From Thermosulfurimonas sp. F29 (GTDB lineage Bacteria; Desulfobacterota; Thermodesulfobacteria; Thermodesulfobacteriales; Thermodesulfobacteriaceae), in NCBI RefSeq assembly GCF_019688735.1, contig NZ_JAIFYA010000001.1, positions 682,001 through 746,000 of the forward strand: a DNA stretch of 64,000 bases, read 5' to 3'. The position numbers and the translations under genes are program-made. The notes beneath the pieces are model-generated. The model worked only from the letters and a program-made list of their open reading frames with translations. It was not told the origin of the DNA and ran no database searches. Below, in pieces: positions 38-54,873 of this stretch. How positions within the stretch are numbered: position 1 is the first letter of the stretch; every line of letters begins with the position of its first letter.

Positions 38-1621
38 TTGCTTTCTATAAAAGAATTATGGCAAGGAGGGATGACATGTTTACACAATCTTTTTGAAATA
101 GAATACAAAACATTTCTTTTACAATTTTTTGTTTCGCATCGGGATCGGTGGGAATTCTTTTCCGGTTACTTCCGTCGAGTTTCTTCTTCCGCCTTCCCAT
201 TAGAAAGATTTTCCCATATTCCGGAGTTAGAAATTCTTGTAGGTTATCTTGATAAAGTCCTTCGGGAAAGGCGTCCCGGAGTAAATGTGCTTCTCTACGG
301 GCCTCCGGGGACTGGCAAGACCGAACTTTCCAAAGCCTTAGCTTCCCATCTCAAGGCCCATCTTTTTGAGGTGGCCTTTCTCAAGCCGGATCTCGAACCT
401 TTCACGCCTGCGGATCGCCTCAGGGCACTCTTTGTGGCTCAGCAGGTCCTCTCCTCCGGCCCGGAGCGTTCCATTATTCTTCTCGACGAAGCCGAGGACA
501 TTTTGGGAGGAATGAATTCGTTAGGCCCTTCCAAGAAAGATCTTCCGAGCAAAATCCAGGTCAACCGTTTCCTCGAAAGCAATCCGATTCCGGTGATCTG
601 GATAGTAAATGTCCTGAGAGGCATAGACCCGGCCCATCTGCGTCGTTTCGACCTTGTGGTTCCGGTGGAGAGCATGCCTGTGGAGATCCGCCTGCAGTTA
701 ATTCGGGAGGCCACGGAGAGGCTTCCGGTGAGCGAGGTCTGGCGGCAAACCCTGGCCCGGGAGGAGATCCCTCCGGCCCTCATCACCCGGGCCGCGCGGG
801 TGGTGGCCACGGTAAACTCCGGAGAGCCCGAGCGCGACCTGGAAAGACTCCTTTCCTCCACCCTCCAGGTTATGGGGAAAGGGCCCGTCTCTGCCCGTAA
901 GAGCCGGCCCCAGCTCCCCTTCCGAGCGGAGGTCCTGAACACCAGCCCGCCTATCGAGGAGATCTTCGCCCTGACCGAAAGCGACTATCCTGCCCGACTT
1001 CTTTTCTACGGGCCACCGGGAACCGGAAAGACCGAGCTTGCCCACCGCCTGGCCGAACGCCTGGGGCGTCCTCTCCTGGTGCGCCGGGCCTCGGATCTCT
1101 TCTCTCCCTATGTAGGCGAGACGGAAAGAGCCATCGCCGCCATGTTCCGGGAGGCCGAGCGGAAGGGGGCGGTTCTTCTCCTCGACGAGGTGGACAGCTT
1201 TCTGCGCACGCGCCGCGAGGCCCGTCACTCCTGGGAGATCACCTGGGTCAACGAGATGCTCACCGGGATGGAGAGATACGAGGGCTGGTTCATCTGCACC
1301 ACCAATTTTGCCGAGATACTGGATGAAGCCACGGCCCGGCGGTTTGACCTTCGGGTGGAATTTCGCCCCATGGAGCCGGAGCAGGCCTGGCGACTTTTCG
1401 TGGCCCTCTTTGGGGATGCGGCCCGAGAGGAACACCGCCGGCGCCTTTACACCCTGAGGCTCACCCCGGGAAACTTCGCCACCGTTTATCGCCGACTTTC
1501 TCTTCTTGGCGCGGAGAAAGATCCCGCCCGGTTTTTACGGGAACTGGAACGCGAGACTGAAGGCCTGCGTTCTCGACCTTCGATAGGGTTTGCCGTGGAC
1601 AAACCCGGTTTTTTAATTTAG
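38..1621 (+). CDS. Tandem AAA+ ATPase (two AAA domains)
   Basis: A protein of about 527 residues with two complete AAA+ modules. Module 1 has Walker A GPPGTGKT at residues 88-95 and Walker B IILLDEAE near 146-153. Module 2 has Walker A at 325-332, Walker B LLLDEVD at 380-386, a sensor-1-like FICTTNF near 418-424 and an arginine-finger-like ATARRFD near 431-437. Such proteins remodel other proteins or nucleic-acid complexes by ATP hydrolysis; the client is unknown. The start is uncertain: TTG at 38 is weak, ATG at 71 abuts an AAGGAGGG, and the frame stays open to the window edge, so the gene may begin further left. The first roughly 200 bases are AT-rich and the rest is GC-rich like the core genome, which suggests a composite history. 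It lies at the left of an integrated element. Confidence 0.75.
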   Translation: MLSIKELWQGGMTCLHNLFEIEYKTFLLQFFVSHRDRWEFFSGYFRRVSSSAFPLERFSHIPELEILVGYLDKVLRERRPGVNVLLYGPPGTGKTELSKALASHLKAHLFEVAFLKPDLEPFTPADRLRALFVAQQVLSSGPERSIILLDEAEDILGGMNSLGPSKKDLPSKIQVNRFLESNPIPVIWIVNVLRGIDPAHLRRFDLVVPVESMPVEIRLQLIREATERLPVSEVWRQTLAREEIPPALITRAARVVATVNSGEPERDLERLLSSTLQVMGKGPVSARKSRPQLPFRAEVLNTSPPIEEIFALTESDYPARLLFYGPPGTGKTELAHRLAERLGRPLLVRRASDLFSPYVGETERAIAAMFREAERKGAVLLLDEVDSFLRTRREARHSWEITWVNEMLTGMERYEGWFICTTNFAEILDEATARRFDLRVEFRPMEPEQAWRLFVALFGDAAREEHRRRLYTLRLTPGNFATVYRRLSLLGAEKDPARFLRELERETEGLRSRPSIGFAVDKPGFLI

Positions 1622-1633
1622 AAAATAGCCTAA

Positions 1634-1807
1634 ATGCGCTATTATTTCGAATGGGATCCACAAAAAGCGAAGCTCAACCTTCAAAAACATAAAGTTTCCT
1701 TTGAGAGAGCATGTACAATTTTTAAAGATCCTAACGCTTTATCCATTTACGATGAAGAACATAGTGAAAAAGAAGATCGTTGGATTACTTTAAGTGAAGG
1801 GCTTTGA
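1634..1807 (+). pseudogene. brnT: BrnT-family toxin, internally deleted
   Basis: A 57-codon frame opening MRYYFEWDPQKAKLNLQKHK and continuing through an EDRWITL segment, the recognisable N-terminal half of BrnT (DUF497) ribonuclease toxins, which are normally about 90 residues. After WITL the frame runs straight into SEGL and a TGA, so the C-terminal half carrying the remaining strands and the RISARK-type motif is missing. The stop overlaps the leader of the antitoxin gene, as in intact brnTA operons. The pattern suggests an internal deletion that kept the translational junction with the antitoxin. The product is probably inactive. The assignment rests on motif recognition only. Confidence 0.65.
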
Positions 1808-1808
1808 A

Positions 1809-2012
1809 ATGAAAAAAGAATACGATTTTTCCAAAGGAGAGAGGGGAAAATTTTACCGTCCTGATGCCGAATTCTATATTCCGATTTATTTAGAACGTGA
1901 AATTCTAGAAGAGCTTGAAAAGATTGCTTTAAAAAAGAATTTAGAAATAAATACTATCGTGAACCAATTTTTAAAGAAAGAATTAGAAATTATAAAATAT
2001 GTTGAAGAATAA
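1809..2012 (+). CDS. BrnA-like antitoxin
   Basis: A 67-residue protein starting MKKEYDFSKGERGKFYRPD, the opening typical of antitoxins that pair with BrnT toxins. It is followed by a ribbon-helix-helix-like segment (IPIYLEREILEELEKIA and the helix after it). The family binds DNA and the toxin and represses its own operon. ATG at 1809 is preferred over an upstream in-frame GTG at 1794 because GAAGG lies about 5 bases before it and the known family starts there. It sits directly after the broken toxin gene, so it is an orphaned antitoxin, perhaps now only a regulator or a neutraliser of another toxin. Codon use is AT-rich like the rest of this island. Confidence 0.65.
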   Translation: MKKEYDFSKGERGKFYRPDAEFYIPIYLEREILEELEKIALKKNLEINTIVNQFLKKELEIIKYVEE

Positions 2013-2046
2013 TTTTTAATAATTTAATTTTACAAAGATTTCAAAA

Positions 2047-3108
2047 ATGGATATGAATTGTGAATTTCGTGAGAGTTTTAATATTTTAAAATTTCTTCTT
2101 TCTAACGAAGATAGCGTATCTTCTTTTCTTAAAGGATTGATGTTTTTTAAACCTATCCGAGAGAGTTTGATTAGACTTTTTGTAGGTAAAGATCTTGGAA
2201 CTCAAGATGTAAAATTTGAAGATATTTATTTTCAATTTGTCTTAAATGAAAATCAATCTAGACCAGACTTGGCAATAATAAATGAAAAATTAAAAATGTT
2301 GATAGAAGTTAAAATAAGTCCTTATAGAAGATTAACCGAAAATCAACCTGAAAGTTATTTAGAATGGTTGGCCAATCAGCAGGGTGAAAATTTGTCTTTG
2401 CATTTTGTGGCAATAATTCCTCCTGATTATGATTATAAGAGTGATTTAGAAAGAAGATTATGCGAATTTAAAGATAAAAAGAAAAGCAAAGAAATTCACA
2501 TAAAAATAATAAATTGGCTAGAAATAAAAAAAGAATTGCAGGACAACAATTTACATTTATTAAGTCCATATATTGCTGATTTTTGTAATTTATTGTCCGA
2601 ATGGTATGAAAATTCAGTTATAAATTTCTCTTTAGAGGAGGTTAATGTGCTATACAGCCGAGAAACTTTTTGTGCTTTATCTAAACTTTTTAATATCATA
2701 GAAAAAACGGTACAGCAATTAGAAACTAAAGAAAAAATAGATGAAGTTTCTATTCATAAGGCTTTCAGAAATAAATGGTGGGAAGACGAATATGGAGTAT
2801 ATTTTAGTTTTAAAAATAATGTTTTACTTTGGTTTGGTATTTGGTCAAAAGCTTGGAGAAAATATGGTTCACCATTATGGATAGGTGTACATAAAGATTG
2901 TGATAAAAATATTATAGAGCTTTTTAAGTATAAAGCAAACAAAGAGAAAAGAGAATATTTTAAAGATTGTTGTGTGATAATAGAAAATTATATAGTATGT
3001 TCTTTTGCAGAAAAATTACTTCAAGACAAAGATAATTACCAAAAAATAATAAAATTCATTAGGAATTATTTAGAAAGTTGTTTGCAATTTGTTTACAATG
3101 AAGATTAA
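2047..3108 (+). CDS. PD-(D/E)XK nuclease-superfamily protein
   Basis: A 353-residue AT-rich gene. Residues about 70-90 contain RPDLAIINEKLKMLIEVKI, which fits the PD-(D/E)XK catalytic signature with D74, E87 and K89. The C-terminal third is rich in Trp and Tyr (an FGIWSKAW region, then a PLWIGVHKD strand) and resembles the substrate-reading half of several restriction-like or DNA-repair-like nucleases found in mobile regions. No methylase or helicase partner is visible, so I do not call it a restriction enzyme. ATG at 2047 follows an AT-rich 34-base gap after the antitoxin. Target and function are unknown. Confidence 0.55.
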   Translation: MDMNCEFRESFNILKFLLSNEDSVSSFLKGLMFFKPIRESLIRLFVGKDLGTQDVKFEDIYFQFVLNENQSRPDLAIINEKLKMLIEVKISPYRRLTENQPESYLEWLANQQGENLSLHFVAIIPPDYDYKSDLERRLCEFKDKKKSKEIHIKIINWLEIKKELQDNNLHLLSPYIADFCNLLSEWYENSVINFSLEEVNVLYSRETFCALSKLFNIIEKTVQQLETKEKIDEVSIHKAFRNKWWEDEYGVYFSFKNNVLLWFGIWSKAWRKYGSPLWIGVHKDCDKNIIELFKYKANKEKREYFKDCCVIIENYIVCSFAEKLLQDKDNYQKIIKFIRNYLESCLQFVYNED

Positions 3109-3110
3109 CT

Positions 3111-3392
3111 TTATTTAAACATTTTCCTTTCTTCAGGTGACAATTCTCTTTCAGATTTTACAACTCCCGGAAGATAAATCTCGATACGATCCAAAGTATT
3201 TTTGACCTGAATTACATAAAAAGTTCCTGTGCGGATGGTTGCTTTTCCGCAGAAATAACCTATAAAAATCGGCTCTTCCCGAAGGCGGACGATGTACATT
3301 TTGTCTCCATAACGGCAATCGCCATCTTCTCGACCGAGCTGCAGCCCTTGATATCCCATAAGGGTATCCCGCCCCTCCATACCTTTATCCAC
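3111..3392 (-). CDS. Hypothetical protein
   Basis: A small frame of up to 93 residues, convergent with the PD-(D/E)XK gene and ending 2 bases after it. The likely start is the GTG at 3392, or one of two in-frame ATG codons just inside; the second of these has GGAGGGG upstream. The C-terminal two thirds looks like a compact beta-rich domain (MYIVRLREEPIFIGYFCGK, then a TFYVIQV strand) with a charged tail. I recognise no family. Base composition lies between the AT-rich neighbours and the core genome. Confidence 0.4.
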   Translation of the reverse strand: MDKGMEGRDTLMGYQGLQLGREDGDCRYGDKMYIVRLREEPIFIGYFCGKATIRTGTFYVIQVKNTLDRIEIYLPGVVKSERELSPEERKMFK

Positions 3393-3467
3393 AAACGGAA
3401 TTTTTGCGTCTCAGGGTAACTTGCCTCGGTGACAGCGGTATATTAGGAATAAAAATGAAAATACCTC

Positions 3468-3577
3468 TGTCATAATGTTGTCATAATTTTGAAGGTAAAC
3501 TTTTCCAAGAATTTAAGGAGCTTAAAGTGGAGCTCGTAAAGATGTAGAGGGAAAATCTTTTTGACATAATGGTGTCA
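3468..3577. promoter_or_regulatory. Repeated 16-bp operator-like box upstream of the dnaE remnant
   Basis: TGTCATAATGTTGTCA at 3468-3483 and TGACATAATGGTGTCA at 3562-3577 agree at 14 of 16 positions. The second is an inverted repeat (TGACA, 6 bases, TGTCA). At the first box the half TGTCATAAT is repeated again 11 bases on (3479-3487). The second box overlaps a TTGACA hexamer at 3561-3566. The layout is that of a repressor binding two sites around a promoter for the gene starting at 3634. The bound protein is unknown. The rest of the gap 3393-3633 is AT-rich with no gene. Confidence 0.4.
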
Positions 3578-3633
3578 GAAAAAGACGATAAAGTAATTAT
3601 ACAGCGATAAATTTTTAAGTTGCGAGGAGCAAA

Positions 3634-4722
3634 ATGGCAAATTTTGTACATCTCCATTTGCATACAGAATGGAGTCTTTTTGATGGAATCATTCGGATTG
3701 ATGATCTTTTTCTTAAAGCTAAAGAATTTGGTTATGAAGCTGTTGCTATTACAGATCATGCTTCTCTTTTTGGGCTTATTTATTTCTACAAAAAAGCAAT
3801 TTCTTTAGGAATAAAACCTATTTTAGGGTGTGAAATTTTTGTTTCTAATGAGAATATTGATAAAAATACTGTTTATCACTTAGTATTGCTTTGCGAGAAC
3901 AATATAGGATATAAAAATCTTTTAAAACTATGTACGGAAGCTTATTTGAAAAGTTCAGGGAAAAAACCTATAGTAAACAAAGAACTTCTTTACAGATTTA
4001 ATGAAGGGTTAATTGCTCTTTCTGGATGTCTTTACGGAGAAATTCCTTCTGCTATTCTTAGAGGAAAATTAGATAAAGCGAGACATATTGCTAAAGAGTA
4101 TGCTCAAATTTTTTCAGGACGTTTTTATCTTGAAGTGCAGGAAAATGGTCTTGTAGAACAAAAAATTATTAATGATGGTCTACTAAAACTTGCTGAAGAA
4201 CTTAATATTCCACTTGTAGCAACTAATGATTGTCATTATCTTCTTCCGGAAGATGCCTATGCTCAAAAGATAAAAGTATGTATGCGATCCGATAAAACTT
4301 TCTCTAAAAAAGAAAATTCTAATTGTTTTACGGATAAGCTTTATTTTGCCCCTCCTGATGAAATGATCGGTCGATTTTCCTGGTGTAGAGAAGCAATAGA
4401 GAATACATTACGCATTGCAGATCGTTGTAATGTAAAACTAGAATTGAATGCGCCTATATATTTAAAATTTTCTCAAAAACACAACTATGAAGAAATTTTT
4501 GAAAAGAAATTATGGGAAAATTTTGAGAAACGCTTAAGCGAATTGAAGAATTTTGGGGATTTTTCTGCTCCGGAAAAAGAATATCGTAAACGTCTTGAAT
4601 ATGAAGCAGAAATTATCAAGAAAATAGGATTATGTGAATATTTTATTATCTCTGCAGAAATTGTAAATTGGGCAAAGGCTGAAGGAATTTTAAAGATATT
4701 AATGGGGTCATCAAACAGGTGA
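3634..4722 (+). pseudogene. dnaE: Truncated DNA polymerase III alpha subunit (PHP domain and start of polymerase)
   Basis: The 362-codon frame begins FVHLHLHTEWSLFDG and carries the PHP-domain landmarks of bacterial DnaE (HLHTEWS, ITDHASLFG, CHYLLPEDAYA). It then follows the DnaE order to YFIISAEIVNWAKAEGI near residue 352. In full-length DnaE (about 1,100 residues) the next segment is the GPGRGSAAGS active-site loop. Here the frame changes to ten unrelated residues and a stop. The polymerase catalytic aspartates are therefore absent. An inverted repeat lies exactly at the break. The gene is AT-rich and was presumably an accessory (element-borne) dnaE; the chromosomal replicase must be elsewhere. 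A residual PHP activity is possible but unsupported. Confidence 0.7.
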
Positions 4723-4768
4723 CATTTTCAGCCTCTAAAACCTTGGAATCATGAGGTCTGAGTGTCAC
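4719..4768. repeat. Imperfect inverted repeat at the deletion junction
   Basis: GTGACA (4719-4724) followed by TTTTCAGCCTC is mirrored by GAGGTCTGAG and TGTCAC (4763-4768), an imperfect inverted repeat of about 16-17 bases with a loop of about 17. It starts at the stop of the truncated dnaE and ends just inside the nuclease remnant. It could be the paired ends of an insertion sequence left after internal loss, or a small terminator-like hairpin. No transposase is present. Confidence 0.4.
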
Positions 4769-5011
4769 ATAAAAAGTGCTCCCAGTAATATCAAGCTTCG
4801 CGAAAAGGGCGAAGAAATCTACCTTCTTAAACCCGAAAAACTTGGAAAGTGTGCGTCTCTTTACGCAGAATGGTTTAAGACCAAATTTCCCGAACTCGTG
4901 AAGTATCTGATCATGCACATTATCGAAGCTCCCTACTGGTATCCGGCCACAAACGAATCTGCCTGCGAATATTGTGATCTTTGGAAGATGTGTAGGTATG
5001 GAGCCTTATAA
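4751..5011 (+). pseudogene. C-terminal remnant of a RecB/Cas4-like nuclease
   Basis: The last 86 codons of what looks like a larger protein. The end carries CEYCDLWKMC, a C-x2-C-x5-C cluster like the iron-sulfur-binding tail of Cas4, AddB and related PD-(D/E)XK nucleases. The catalytic part, which would lie upstream, is missing: the upstream sequence is the inverted repeat and the dnaE fragment. The ATG at 4751 is probably fortuitous. Composition is more GC-rich than the dnaE remnant, so the two fragments come from different sources. No CRISPR array or other cas gene is present in the window. Confidence 0.5.
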
Positions 5012-5137: not shown

Positions 5138-5185
5138 GATACTACCTTGACATAGCTTTGAATTTCTTCTAATTTCTTATCGAAC

Positions 5186-5226
5186 GAGGGCGGTTAGTGC
5201 GGGTTCGAGTCCCGCCCTCGGCACCA
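5186..5226 (+). other. tRNA 3' fragment (attachment-site scar)
   Basis: The segment contains a complete T arm (GCGGG, loop TTCGAGT, CCCGC at 5199-5215), a 7-base acceptor strand CCTCGGC (5216-5222), discriminator A and CCA (5224-5226). The matching 5' acceptor would be GCCGAGG, typical of tRNA-Leu. No D arm, anticodon arm or 5' strand precedes it, so it is not a tRNA gene. Integrases often use the 3' end of a tRNA, rebuild it on one side and leave a copy of the 3' end on the other. This marks the right boundary of the accessory region; the intact tRNA should lie to the left, outside the window. Confidence 0.75.
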
Positions 5227-5237
5227 GGAAGCTTTCT

Positions 5238-5396
5238 TTAGCGCCGCCGGGAGCGTTTTTTCTTTTTACGGGCCCGCTGGTCCAGCGAGCAACTGTCCAT
5301 GGAGCCTCAGGTGGGGACCCCCAGGCGGGGAAGGATGAACCGGTTGAGGAGGACCCAGAATACGATAATGAGGGTGAGAACCAGGAGATCGTTCAT
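5238..5396 (-). CDS. Candidate selenoprotein: small membrane protein with in-frame UGA
   Basis: ATG at 5396 lies 5 bases after the gltX stop, with AGAGGT 7 bases upstream. It opens MNDLLVLTLIIVFWVLLNRF, one transmembrane helix (about residues 4-22), then ILPRLGVPT. Codon 30 (5309-5307) is TGA. The frame continues for 22 more codons, GSMDSCSLDQRARKKKK and a basic end, to TAA at 5240-5238. If UGA is read as selenocysteine the product has 52 residues with a redox-type pair U30/C36 on the side of the basic tail, presumably cytoplasmic. A hairpin at 5272-5290 has bacterial SECIS geometry. If UGA is a stop, the product is a 29-residue single-helix peptide. The selenocysteine machinery is not in this window, so the call is an inference. 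Confidence 0.5.
5272..5290 (-). promoter_or_regulatory. Putative bacterial SECIS hairpin
   Basis: Read on the minus strand this is GCTCGCTG, GAC, CAGCGGGC: an 8-bp stem (one T-G wobble) with a 3-base loop starting in G. The stem begins 16 bases after the in-frame TGA and the loop 24 bases after it. The published bacterial SECIS pattern asks for a short stem, a G among the first loop bases, and a loop about 16-37 bases after UGA; all three are met. It lies within the coding frame, as bacterial SECIS elements do. GC-rich DNA also makes hairpins by chance. Confidence 0.45.
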
Positions 5397-5401
5397 GATC
5401 G

Positions 5402-6799
5402 TTACCTCTTGCGGATGAATTCCAGAGCCCGTTGTAGCCGACGCAACACCCTCTCCCGTCCCAGAACGCGCATGACCTCGAAAAGCCCAGGACTCACCGT
5501 CTTTCCGGTAAGGGCCACCCGCACCGGCTGGGCGATCTTTTTGAGCTTTAGCCCCAATTCCTCGGAAAGACCCCGAAAGAGTCTCTCCAGGGCCTCGTCC
5601 GAAAATTCCACCCCGGCAAGCTCTCGCACCAGGCGCTCAAAGACCGGCTCCATCTCCGGGGTGAGAAACTTCTCCGCGGCCTTGGGGTCGTAGGTCACCT
5701 CCTCCACCAGATAGAAAGCGAGCATCTCGGCGGCCTCGAGGAGGGTGCGGGCCCGGGGTTTCACCGTCTCCAGGGCTTCCACCAGATAGGCCTTTTCCGG
5801 CACGGGAAGTCCCAGGCGGACCAGGAAGGGTTTGACCTCCTCGGCAAGCTCCGGAGTGGGGGTGGCCCGGAGCCAGTGGGCGTTTATGGCCAGGAGTTTG
5901 TCCGGATCAAAGCGGGCTGCGGACTTGTTGACCCTGGTGAGATCGAACTTTGCGATCATCTCCTCCAGGGTGAAGATCTCCTGATCTCCGTAGGACCAGC
6001 CCAGGCGCACCAGGTAATTCCGCAGGGCCTGGGGAAGATACCCTTCGTCCCGGTAAGCCAGGATGGAGAGGGCCCCGTGGCGCTTGGAGAGCCGGGTGCC
6101 GTCCGGCCCCAGGATCATGGGCACATGGGCGAAGTGCGGAGGCTCGGCCCCCAGGGCCTCGTAGAGGAGGATCTGTTTGGGGGTGTTGGAGAGGTGGTCG
6201 TCCCCCCGGATGACATGGGTTATGCCCATGGTGAGGTCGTCTACCACCACGGCGAATTGATAGGTGGGGGTGCCGTCGCTGCGCACCAGAATGAAGTCGT
6301 CTATCTCCCGGTGGTCGAAGGCCACCGCCCCCCGGATCAGGTCCTCCACCACCGTGGTTCCCGTCTCCGGCACCCGAAGCCGCAGGACCCGCCCCGGACC
6401 GGGGGGAAGATTCTTGTCCCGGCAGGTGCCGTCGTAGCCGGGTTTGCGGCCGGCGGCCAGGGCCTCACGGCGCTTTTGTTCCAGCTCCTCCGGGGAACAC
6501 TCGCAGTAATAGGCCTTGCCCTCCTCGTAAAGTCGGCGCGCGTACTCCCGGTATACCTCCAGCCTCTCGGACTGGAAGTAAGGCCCCTCATCCCAGTAAA
6601 GCCCCAGCCACTCCAGGGCCTCCCGGATGGAGTCCACATATTCCTGACGGGATCTCTCCCGATCGGTGTCCTCAAAGCGCAGAACGAAGGTGCCGCCGTG
6701 GTGCCGGGCAAAGAGCCAGTTGAAAAGTGCGGTACGGGCTCCTCCCAGATGGAGGTGTCCGGTGGGACTGGGGGGGAAACGGGTCTTTACGCTCTTCAT
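5402..6799 (-). CDS. gltX: Glutamyl-tRNA synthetase
   Basis: A 465-residue class I aminoacyl-tRNA synthetase that charges tRNA-Glu (and possibly tRNA-Gln, depending on discrimination). The HIGH-type motif HLGG is at residues 17-20 and the KMSKS-type motif RLSKR at 236-240. A zinc-binding pattern C99, C101, Y122, C126 is present. The C-terminal helical anticodon-binding half is complete. The gene follows memo by 6 bases and is followed after 5 bases by the small UGA-containing gene, so the three are probably one transcript. Length is normal for the family. Confidence 0.97.
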   Translation of the reverse strand: MKSVKTRFPPSPTGHLHLGGARTALFNWLFARHHGGTFVLRFEDTDRERSRQEYVDSIREALEWLGLYWDEGPYFQSERLEVYREYARRLYEEGKAYYCECSPEELEQKRREALAAGRKPGYDGTCRDKNLPPGPGRVLRLRVPETGTTVVEDLIRGAVAFDHREIDDFILVRSDGTPTYQFAVVVDDLTMGITHVIRGDDHLSNTPKQILLYEALGAEPPHFAHVPMILGPDGTRLSKRHGALSILAYRDEGYLPQALRNYLVRLGWSYGDQEIFTLEEMIAKFDLTRVNKSAARFDPDKLLAINAHWLRATPTPELAEEVKPFLVRLGLPVPEKAYLVEALETVKPRARTLLEAAEMLAFYLVEEVTYDPKAAEKFLTPEMEPVFERLVRELAGVEFSDEALERLFRGLSEELGLKLKKIAQPVRVALTGKTVSPGLFEVMRVLGRERVLRRLQRALEFIRKR

Positions 6800-53169: not shown

Positions 53170-54873
53170 ATGGGCAAGAGGATCGTGGTAATAGGTGCGG
53201 TGGCTTGCGGCCCCAAGGCGGCCTGCCGGGCCAAACGACTCATGCCCGAGGCGGAAATCACCCTCATCGACAAGGACGATCTCATCTCCTACGGAGGCTG
53301 CGGAATCCCCTATTACATCTCTGGGGACATTCCCGACGAAAATCAGCTCCGGGAGACCTCCTTTCACATGCTCCGGGACGAATACTTTTTCGAAAACGCC
53401 AAGGGAATCGACCGGGTGCTTACCCGCACGCTTGCCACGGACATAGACCGGGAGCGAAAGGTGGTGAGGGTCAAACACCTCGATTCCGGGGAGGAAGAGG
53501 AGATCCCTTACGACAATCTGGTTCTGGCCACGGGGTCCACTCCTTTTATTCCTCCCATTCCGGGCCGGGACCTCGATGGGGTTTACGCCATCGCGAATCT
53601 TCACAAGGCCATAGAGATCAAGAACCGCCTGGCCCGGGGGCAGGTGGAACGCGCCGTTATTATCGGAGCCGGTCCCATAGGGCTTGAGATGGCCGAGGCC
53701 TTTGCCGACCTCTGGGGGGTGGAGACCACGGTGCTGGAATACTTCGACCAGGTGCTGCCCAGGCTGATCGATCCACCGCTCGCCCGGATGGTGGAGCATC
53801 ATCTCCGGGAGAAGGGCGTTCGGGTGGTGGTGAACGCCCGTATCAAGGAAATTCGCGGAAAGGACGGCCGGGTTGTCGAGGTGGTGGAGGAACGGGGGAG
53901 TTATCCCGCCGACATAGTGGTCTTCGCCACCGGGGTGCGTCCCAATGTTGACCTGGCCCGGCGGGCCGGTCTCCTGGTGGACCGGGGCATCGTGGTGAAC
54001 GATCGCCTCCAGACCTCGGACCCCAACATATACGCCGGGGGCGACTGCATCGAGACCGTGCATCTGGTCACCGGAAAGAGGGTGGTGCTTCCCCTGGGAT
54101 CGCTGGCCAACCGTCAGGGCCGGGTCATCGGGGACAATCTGGCCGGGCGTCCCACGCGTTTCCCGGGCGTGGTGGGAGCCTTTATCATGAAGTGTTTCGA
54201 TCTGGCCATCGGAGCCTGCGGGCTTTCCCTCTCCGTGGCCCGCGCCGAGGGATTCGACGCCGATTACGCCCTGGGGAATCAGACCGAACGGGCGCACTAC
54301 TATCCGGAGGCCGAGTTCATCTTCGTGGAGCTGGTGTTCGACCGGAGAACCCGACGGGTGCTGGGCTTCCAGGCCGTAGGTCCCAAAACGGACGGAACGC
54401 TCGCCCGGATCCACGCCGTCTCCTCCGTCCTGCCCCATCGCCCCACGGTGGAGGACCTCATCTCCCTCGAGCTGGCCTACGCTCCTCCCTTCAATTCCGC
54501 CCTGGATCCCATTCACGATGTGGCCCACACCGCGGAGAACCTCCTTGACGGGATCCTGGTCCAGATGGACTGGGAGGAGGTCCTGCGGAGACTCCGGGAG
54601 GGGGATCCCGATACCGTTTTCGTGGATACCCGTCATCCCCGGGAGGCCGAGCCCCTGGTCAGGAAGTATCCCGGCCGCTGGATCCATGTGGAATACGACA
54701 AGGTGCGCCGCGAGATGGATCGCATCCCCCGGGACAAGGATGTGATCCTCATCTGTAATTCCAGCCGCCGGGCCTACGAGGCCCAGAGGTGGTTGACCGC
54801 CGCCGGCTATACCCGGACCTTCGTACCTCCGGGGGGACTCAACTTCCTGCGACGCTGGGGAGTGGAGCTTTAA
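53170..54873 (+). CDS. CoA-disulfide reductase/rhodanese fusion (NADH-dependent persulfide reductase type)
   Basis: A 567-residue flavoprotein. The N-terminus is an FAD/NAD(P) oxidoreductase with C44 in SYGGCGIPYYIS, the CoA-disulfide reductase active cysteine. The NAD-binding GAGPIGLEMAEAF lies near the middle. The C-terminal rhodanese domain has its catalytic cysteine C529 in LICNSSRRAYEAQ. Such fusions reduce CoA-persulfide, polysulfide or elemental sulfur. It is divergent from trpD across 146 bases. GGGAGGTG lies 5 bases before ATG at 53170. Confidence 0.9.
   Translation: MGKRIVVIGAVACGPKAACRAKRLMPEAEITLIDKDDLISYGGCGIPYYISGDIPDENQLRETSFHMLRDEYFFENAKGIDRVLTRTLATDIDRERKVVRVKHLDSGEEEEIPYDNLVLATGSTPFIPPIPGRDLDGVYAIANLHKAIEIKNRLARGQVERAVIIGAGPIGLEMAEAFADLWGVETTVLEYFDQVLPRLIDPPLARMVEHHLREKGVRVVVNARIKEIRGKDGRVVEVVEERGSYPADIVVFATGVRPNVDLARRAGLLVDRGIVVNDRLQTSDPNIYAGGDCIETVHLVTGKRVVLPLGSLANRQGRVIGDNLAGRPTRFPGVVGAFIMKCFDLAIGACGLSLSVARAEGFDADYALGNQTERAHYYPEAEFIFVELVFDRRTRRVLGFQAVGPKTDGTLARIHAVSSVLPHRPTVEDLISLELAYAPPFNSALDPIHDVAHTAENLLDGILVQMDWEEVLRRLREGDPDTVFVDTRHPREAEPLVRKYPGRWIHVEYDKVRREMDRIPRDKDVILICNSSRRAYEAQRWLTAAGYTRTFVPPGGLNFLRRWGVEL

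Follow-up and report, generated by a model that had tools for sequence, protein, structure and literature searches.

A putative 52-residue membrane selenoprotein encoded next to gltX in Thermosulfurimonas sp. F29, and its family

The gene downstream of gltX

The window analysed here is a 64,000-nucleotide stretch of DNA from Thermosulfurimonas sp. F29, in which gltX (glutamyl-tRNA synthetase) occupies positions 6799 to 5402 of the minus strand. It is followed on the same strand, at 5396-5238, by a gene of 52 codons including one UGA, with an ATG at 5396-5394 that lies 5 nt past the gltX stop codon, the sequence AAGAGG just 5′ of this ATG, and a TAA at 5240-5238. When TGA is read as U, the gene translates to MNDLLVLTLIIVFWVLLNRFILPRLGVPT-U-GSMDSCSLDQRARKKKKRSRRR-stop, and the UGA at 5309-5307 specifies residue 30, a predicted selenocysteine (Sec30). 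A first-pass annotation of this DNA had described a start codon with a ribosome site 5 nt after gltX, one membrane helix, and an in-frame UGA followed by an open frame to a TAA, all of which agree with what we found; its coordinates, 5238-5396, were right in position, but it did not state the strand, which is the minus strand. It is probable that gltX and the selenoprotein gene are co-transcribed.

The predicted protein contains a single membrane helix formed by residues 2 to 24 (5393-5325), which was modelled by AlphaFold2 with pLDDT values of 86 to 89 over residues 1 to 20 and is supported by the flanking charge; past residue 24 the model is of low confidence (pLDDT 54 to 68). The motif LPRLGVPT (5333-5310), for which the family consensus is [LF]P[KR]xG[VI]xT, directly precedes Sec30, and a cysteine, Cys36 (5291-5289), is the candidate partner of Sec30. 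The protein ends in a basic C-terminal tail, RARKKKKRSRRR (5276-5241), and the tails of other family members are likewise charged or basic, varying in composition and usually charged.

The median net charge in 117 distinct members collected for residue statistics was -1 before the helix and +3 after it, and the segment after the helix was more positive than the segment before it in 108 of the 117. The positive flank of a membrane helix is cytoplasmic according to the positive-inside rule. Therefore, the charge asymmetry indicates a bitopic peptide in the N-out/C-in orientation with Sec at the inner (cytoplasmic) surface of the membrane, a topology that is probable but inferred from charge and hydropathy only.

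Distribution of the family and decoding of the UGA

A read-through search yielded homologues in 46 of 99 near-relative genomes, and nearly all of these homologues have one in-frame TGA in the same place. For wider searches we used as the profile query an alignment of 27 members (A1) in which C was written for U. With this query the family was found in 173 of the 395 genomes of the window's own phylum (about 44%; E <= 0.01), and in 26 of the 296 genomes of a second phylum, Spirochaetota (including locus L049); the sets of 99, 395 and 296 genomes overlap in part. Among the matches listed, the Sec codon is TGA in every genuine member found, including all those listed from the second phylum, and for the 395 genomes of the own phylum this statement does not extend to the weakest 20 or so matches, which lie outside those listed. 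Fifteen genomes with weak or second matches were re-examined for TGA. Locus L086 is a genuine member whose TGA lies just outside the aligned range, and the matches without TGA at L091-L093 and L095, considered as possible Cys-type members, were rejected as chance matches to other proteins.

The residues that precede Sec are strongly conserved in the 117 members, with proline at U-7 and glycine at U-4 each found in 97% and threonine at U-1 in 91%. A cysteine is located at U+5 in 89 members and at U+6 in 12, or 101 of 117 (86%), so that about 14% have no cysteine at either position. The Sec-Cys pair (U30/C36) put forward in the first-pass annotation is thus supported as to the nearness of a cysteine in these 101 members but is not universal, and because this cysteine is not universal it is Sec itself that is the constant feature. 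That annotation had also suggested, tentatively, that related bacteria have Cys-containing homologues, and these did not materialize: no clear Cys-for-Sec form was seen in the 99, 395 and 296 (partly overlapping) genomes, even though the query carried C. In these genomes the family occurs with Sec alone, except that two genomes of a single genus (G057 and G094) also have a diverged paralogue without Sec. This paralogue of about 35 residues (PRLKPPTSFGCPT / MEDVLIIILVIAFFVALFKWVVPRLKPPTSFGCPT, at L156/L157) is the only candidate Cys relative seen, and the Sec form is present beside it in both genomes.

Two Sec-containing copies, one more diverged than the other, are present in each of six genomes of the second phylum (G538, G564, G587, G591, G616 and G637). 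Diverged members that keep the UGA without the preceding threonine and the close cysteine were seen at L089 (G010) and L090 (G012), the latter having a cysteine directly before Sec (PC-U) and a Cys-containing end after it. No plasmid-borne copies of the family were found.

The open frame and the hairpin were evaluated in 98 of the members. In every one of the 98, no stop codon interrupts the frame over at least the first 13 codons past the UGA, for which the chance probability is 1.7e-26 if independence is assumed. The value of pN/pS pooled over close pairs was 0.25 after the UGA and 0.16 before it, indicating purifying selection, and synonymous change after the UGA was also reduced, as is expected where a SECIS element overlaps coding sequence. 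Neither these selection statistics nor the pairing statistics given below were corrected for phylogeny.

The genome of Thermosulfurimonas sp. F29 encodes SelA (606 bits), SelB (375 bits), SelD (364 bits) and a tRNA-Sec with a TCA anticodon (83.9 bits). The SelD gene itself contains an in-frame TGA (AAGUAAK), making SelD a selenocysteine-containing protein, and therefore UGA recoding is in use in this organism, which provides an internal positive control. The first-pass annotation had held that the codons after the UGA are meaningful, a view borne out by their conservation, by the purifying selection on them and by the charged or basic tails that they encode. It had also named two observations that would refute it, the absence of selA, selB and selC from the genome, and homologues that all stop at the UGA with nothing conserved after it; neither was made, given the complete set of genes above, the frame open in 98 of 98 members and the pN/pS of 0.25.

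SelB is nearly universal in genomes of the own phylum. In the second phylum it is present in 75 of the 296 genomes, and these include every one of the 26 in which the family occurs (hypergeometric probability 7e-18, uncorrected for relatedness). Four family-positive genomes of the own phylum without a SelB match were considered as counter-evidence and set aside, because all four have SelA at more than 618 bits. A genome without SelA, G073, gave only marginal, non-family matches and no true member.

The putative bSECIS hairpin, GCUCGCUG-GAC-CAGCGGGC, is located at 5290-5272 on the minus strand and consists of 8 bp closed by a GAC loop (5282-5280) that lies 24 nt after the UGA. This geometry is as the first-pass annotation gave it, but as a single sequence the hairpin is unremarkable: its energy alone is -12.4 kcal/mol (z = -1.73), 13 of 200 shuffled sequences fold equally well, and a 48-nt stretch prefers a competing fold. 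Therefore, the weight of the observation comes only from comparison. The published rule for bSECIS elements calls for a G among the first two loop nucleotides and a loop 16 to 37 nt after the UGA (PMC13188914). Of the 98 members, 97 satisfy this rule, having such a G and a hairpin 16 to 28 nt after the UGA. The median hairpin energy was -11.7 kcal/mol, compared to -5.05 kcal/mol in synonymous recodings that keep the peptide, and -8 kcal/mol was reached by 84% of members compared to 30% of the recodings. When a fixed pairing register was set by the position of the cysteine and not by folding, 66% of cells paired over the seven innermost pairs, whereas the maximum in 1000 permutations was 55%; the eight-pair register gave 62%, and shifted registers gave 31 to 41%. 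Compensatory changes are evident in that single stem positions show C-G, A-U, G-C and G-U in turn.

On this evidence, which is comparative and not experimental, recoding of the UGA by a SECIS element within the coding region is near-certain for the family, and for the UGA at 5309-5307 we predict decoding as selenocysteine with very high confidence, in the absence of expression, mass-spectrometry or selenium-labelling data.

Role of the peptide and its relation to known selenoproteins

In the mechanism that we propose, SelA, SelB, SelD and tRNA-Sec would decode the UGA at 5309-5307 as Sec by means of the SECIS hairpin in the gene, and the product would be a bitopic membrane peptide with a short acidic N terminus outside and one helix. 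The inferred arrangement would place LPRLGVPT-U at the inner membrane surface, followed by the nearby cysteine and the basic cytoplasmic tail. Sec30 could then attack an oxidant, or a disulfide or persulfide of a membrane partner, and form a selenylsulfide with Cys36, or with a thiol of the partner where the cysteine is missing, which thioredoxin might reduce. An internal selenylsulfide is not general, because about 14% of members have no cysteine at U+5 or U+6, and thioredoxin as the reductant is a tentative inference. The peptide is too short to form an enzyme fold, so a membrane-tethered redox group is its likely role. The best explanation overall, to which we assign a probability of roughly 0.65, is that the locus encodes a 52-residue membrane selenoprotein that serves as such a group; thiol/selenol redox activity at the membrane is itself inferred, and we consider it likely without biochemical data. 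The main puzzle is that Sec is universal and the cysteine dispensable.

The gene neighbourhood was also considered. gltX is the upstream neighbour only within the window's order, the neighbours elsewhere vary, and the upstream neighbours in seven relatives match PF00749. No constant gene neighbour that might be an operon partner was found across the family, and the same is true of a constantly linked regulator or selenium gene; a conserved operon partner as a functional clue was rejected because gltX is constant only in that order. Genes for Trx, TlpA, CcdA or ArsR (named by sequence comparison) are located near about 15 of 72 loci and in some cases abut the selenoprotein gene: the selenoprotein start lies no more than about 20 nt from the end of a thioredoxin gene at L127, L128 and L167, and at L114 a thioredoxin gene lies downstream. 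The link to thioredoxin is weak, because the genes around the family differ greatly between loci and several of the loci with redox genes share a neighbourhood, probably representing one lineage, and the proximity of redox genes is a hint of function and not proof.

The alternative that survives best, although we think it unlikely, is that the peptide belongs to a larger membrane complex as a small subunit or adaptor, with Sec acting there as a contact or as a ligand for a metal or cofactor and not as a redox thiol. It would accommodate a length of 52 residues that leaves no room for an enzyme fold, the Asn/Gln and Pro-Lys-x-Gly conserved near the end of the helix, which resemble protein contacts, and a Sec-only family in which the cysteine is sometimes lost, but no constant gene neighbour is available to be the complex, and redox pairs typically have a cysteine at a set distance. 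Rather improbable is a selenium-gated switch, in which the selenium supply would determine whether a 29- or a 52-residue product is made, the long form gaining a charged cytoplasmic tail. A universal Sec with a partner cysteine that is not universal, a tail of variable composition that is usually charged, and the lack of any Cys form seen that would abolish the switch are all compatible with it, whereas a pure switch would have no need of the cysteine near Sec (86%) or the threonine before it (91%), and neither a regulator nor a selenium gene accompanies the locus consistently.

We give very little credence to an ordinary stop codon, by which the UGA would end a 29-residue membrane peptide (...VPT) and the downstream sequence would be non-coding. 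The conserved block LPRLGVPT does end exactly at the UGA, and the hairpin is unremarkable on the window alone, but TAA or TAG was found at the Sec codon in no member seen, the open frame in 98 of 98 members retains the cysteine in most and has a pN/pS of 0.25, and in the second phylum SelB accompanies the family in 26 of 26 genomes and is otherwise found in a quarter. The proximity of the hairpin to the 3′ end of the gltX transcript and its high GC content in the window would suit a terminator or other regulatory RNA that is not a SECIS, but this reading is scarcely tenable, since no U-run follows the hairpin, its place relative to the UGA and its G-first loop persist although the stem varies through compensatory substitutions, and the hairpin is retained where gltX is not the neighbour.

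None of the 27 members of the alignment matched an NCBIfam (June 2026) or Pfam model above the curated cut-off. The families named in Haft and Tolstoy 2025 and in Zhang and Gladyshev 2007 are reportedly included in a 2026 table of prokaryotic selenoprotein families, and many are said to have NCBIfam models. No evident entry of the present description is contained in that table, which covers 119 families (PMC13188914), and our literature searches returned no matching description of the family, although mention under another name is not excluded. The family may have been missed because the part before the UGA is only 29 codons long and no Cys orthologue was found that could seed searches for Cys/Sec pairs. 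Nearly all selenoproteins have Cys homologues (PMC13188914), whereas a Cys-containing orthologue was not found for this family.

In overall layout the predicted protein is comparable to SELENOK and SELENOS of the eukaryotic ER membrane (PMC10650576), which likewise have a single N-terminal membrane helix, a short unstructured part and no thioredoxin fold, and whose N-out/C-in orientation with Sec on the cytoplasmic side would be matched if the topology inferred here from charge is right. However, Sec is 2 to 3 residues from the C terminus of SELENOK and SELENOS (PMC10650576), whereas in the window protein it is 22 residues from the end and predicted to lie right at the membrane surface, and it is never second or third from the C terminus in the family, as at least 13 residues follow it in all 98 members. 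SELENOK and SELENOS also contain a glycine-rich basic segment (PMC10650576), whereas the family tail is rich in charged residues and not in glycine. Because the position of Sec and the glycine-rich segment do not fit, we place the family outside SELENOK/SELENOS; the family's bacterial SECIS is in the coding region, unlike in those proteins, and no sequence relation was noted. The resemblance may be taken as one of layout, by analogy, and not of homology.

The family shares with the UxxC/CxxU thiol-redox selenoproteins of bacteria (PMC13188914) the same Sec machinery, a bSECIS in the coding region and a Sec near a Cys, but differs from them in its UxxxxC or UxxxxxC spacing and in the lack of a thioredoxin fold. 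It is also like the LULAXC-motif TsoA (NF045695), CC/Se-motif (NF041239) and dual-CXXC (NF041197) families (PMC13188914) in being defined by a motif and of unknown function, the difference being that the 27 members match none of the NCBIfam selenoprotein models. On balance we favour the view that this is a large, uncatalogued, Sec-only family of bitopic membrane microproteins that spans two or more phyla, apparently cannot have its selenium replaced by sulfur, and corresponds in layout, on the bacterial side, to SELENOK/SELENOS. The family enlarges the bacterial selenoproteome and is a case in which Sec seems not to be replaceable by Cys, where why Sec is kept at all is a general open question. 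A membrane selenopeptide of about 50 residues is a tractable test object, and the case suggests that other tiny selenoproteins are hidden likewise.

Flanking sequences in the window

Two further tRNA-like sequences were noted. At 54727-54817 on the minus strand ARAGORN called a 91-nt tRNA-Thr(CGT) that was unconfirmed by the Rfam tRNA model; most probably the call is spurious or the tRNA is of an unusual type. At 5184-5226 on the plus strand, convergent with the selenoprotein gene, only the 3′ end of a tRNA is present (T-arm and acceptor, ending GCCCTCGGCACCA). An intact tRNA-Arg(CCG) occupies the same site in three relatives (L019, L020 and L021), and an intact tRNA-Leu(CAA) at G000:C1:675000 has the same last 17 bases as this piece, which looks like what remains of the attachment site of an island integrated to its left. 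The candidate island, 38-5011, adjoins the remnant, and its ORFs (named by sequence reading only) include one at 38-1621 resembling a double-AAA ATPase, a small BrnT-like ORF followed by its partner at 1634-2012, and at 3634-4722 a PHP fragment like that of DNA polymerase III alpha, which stops early.
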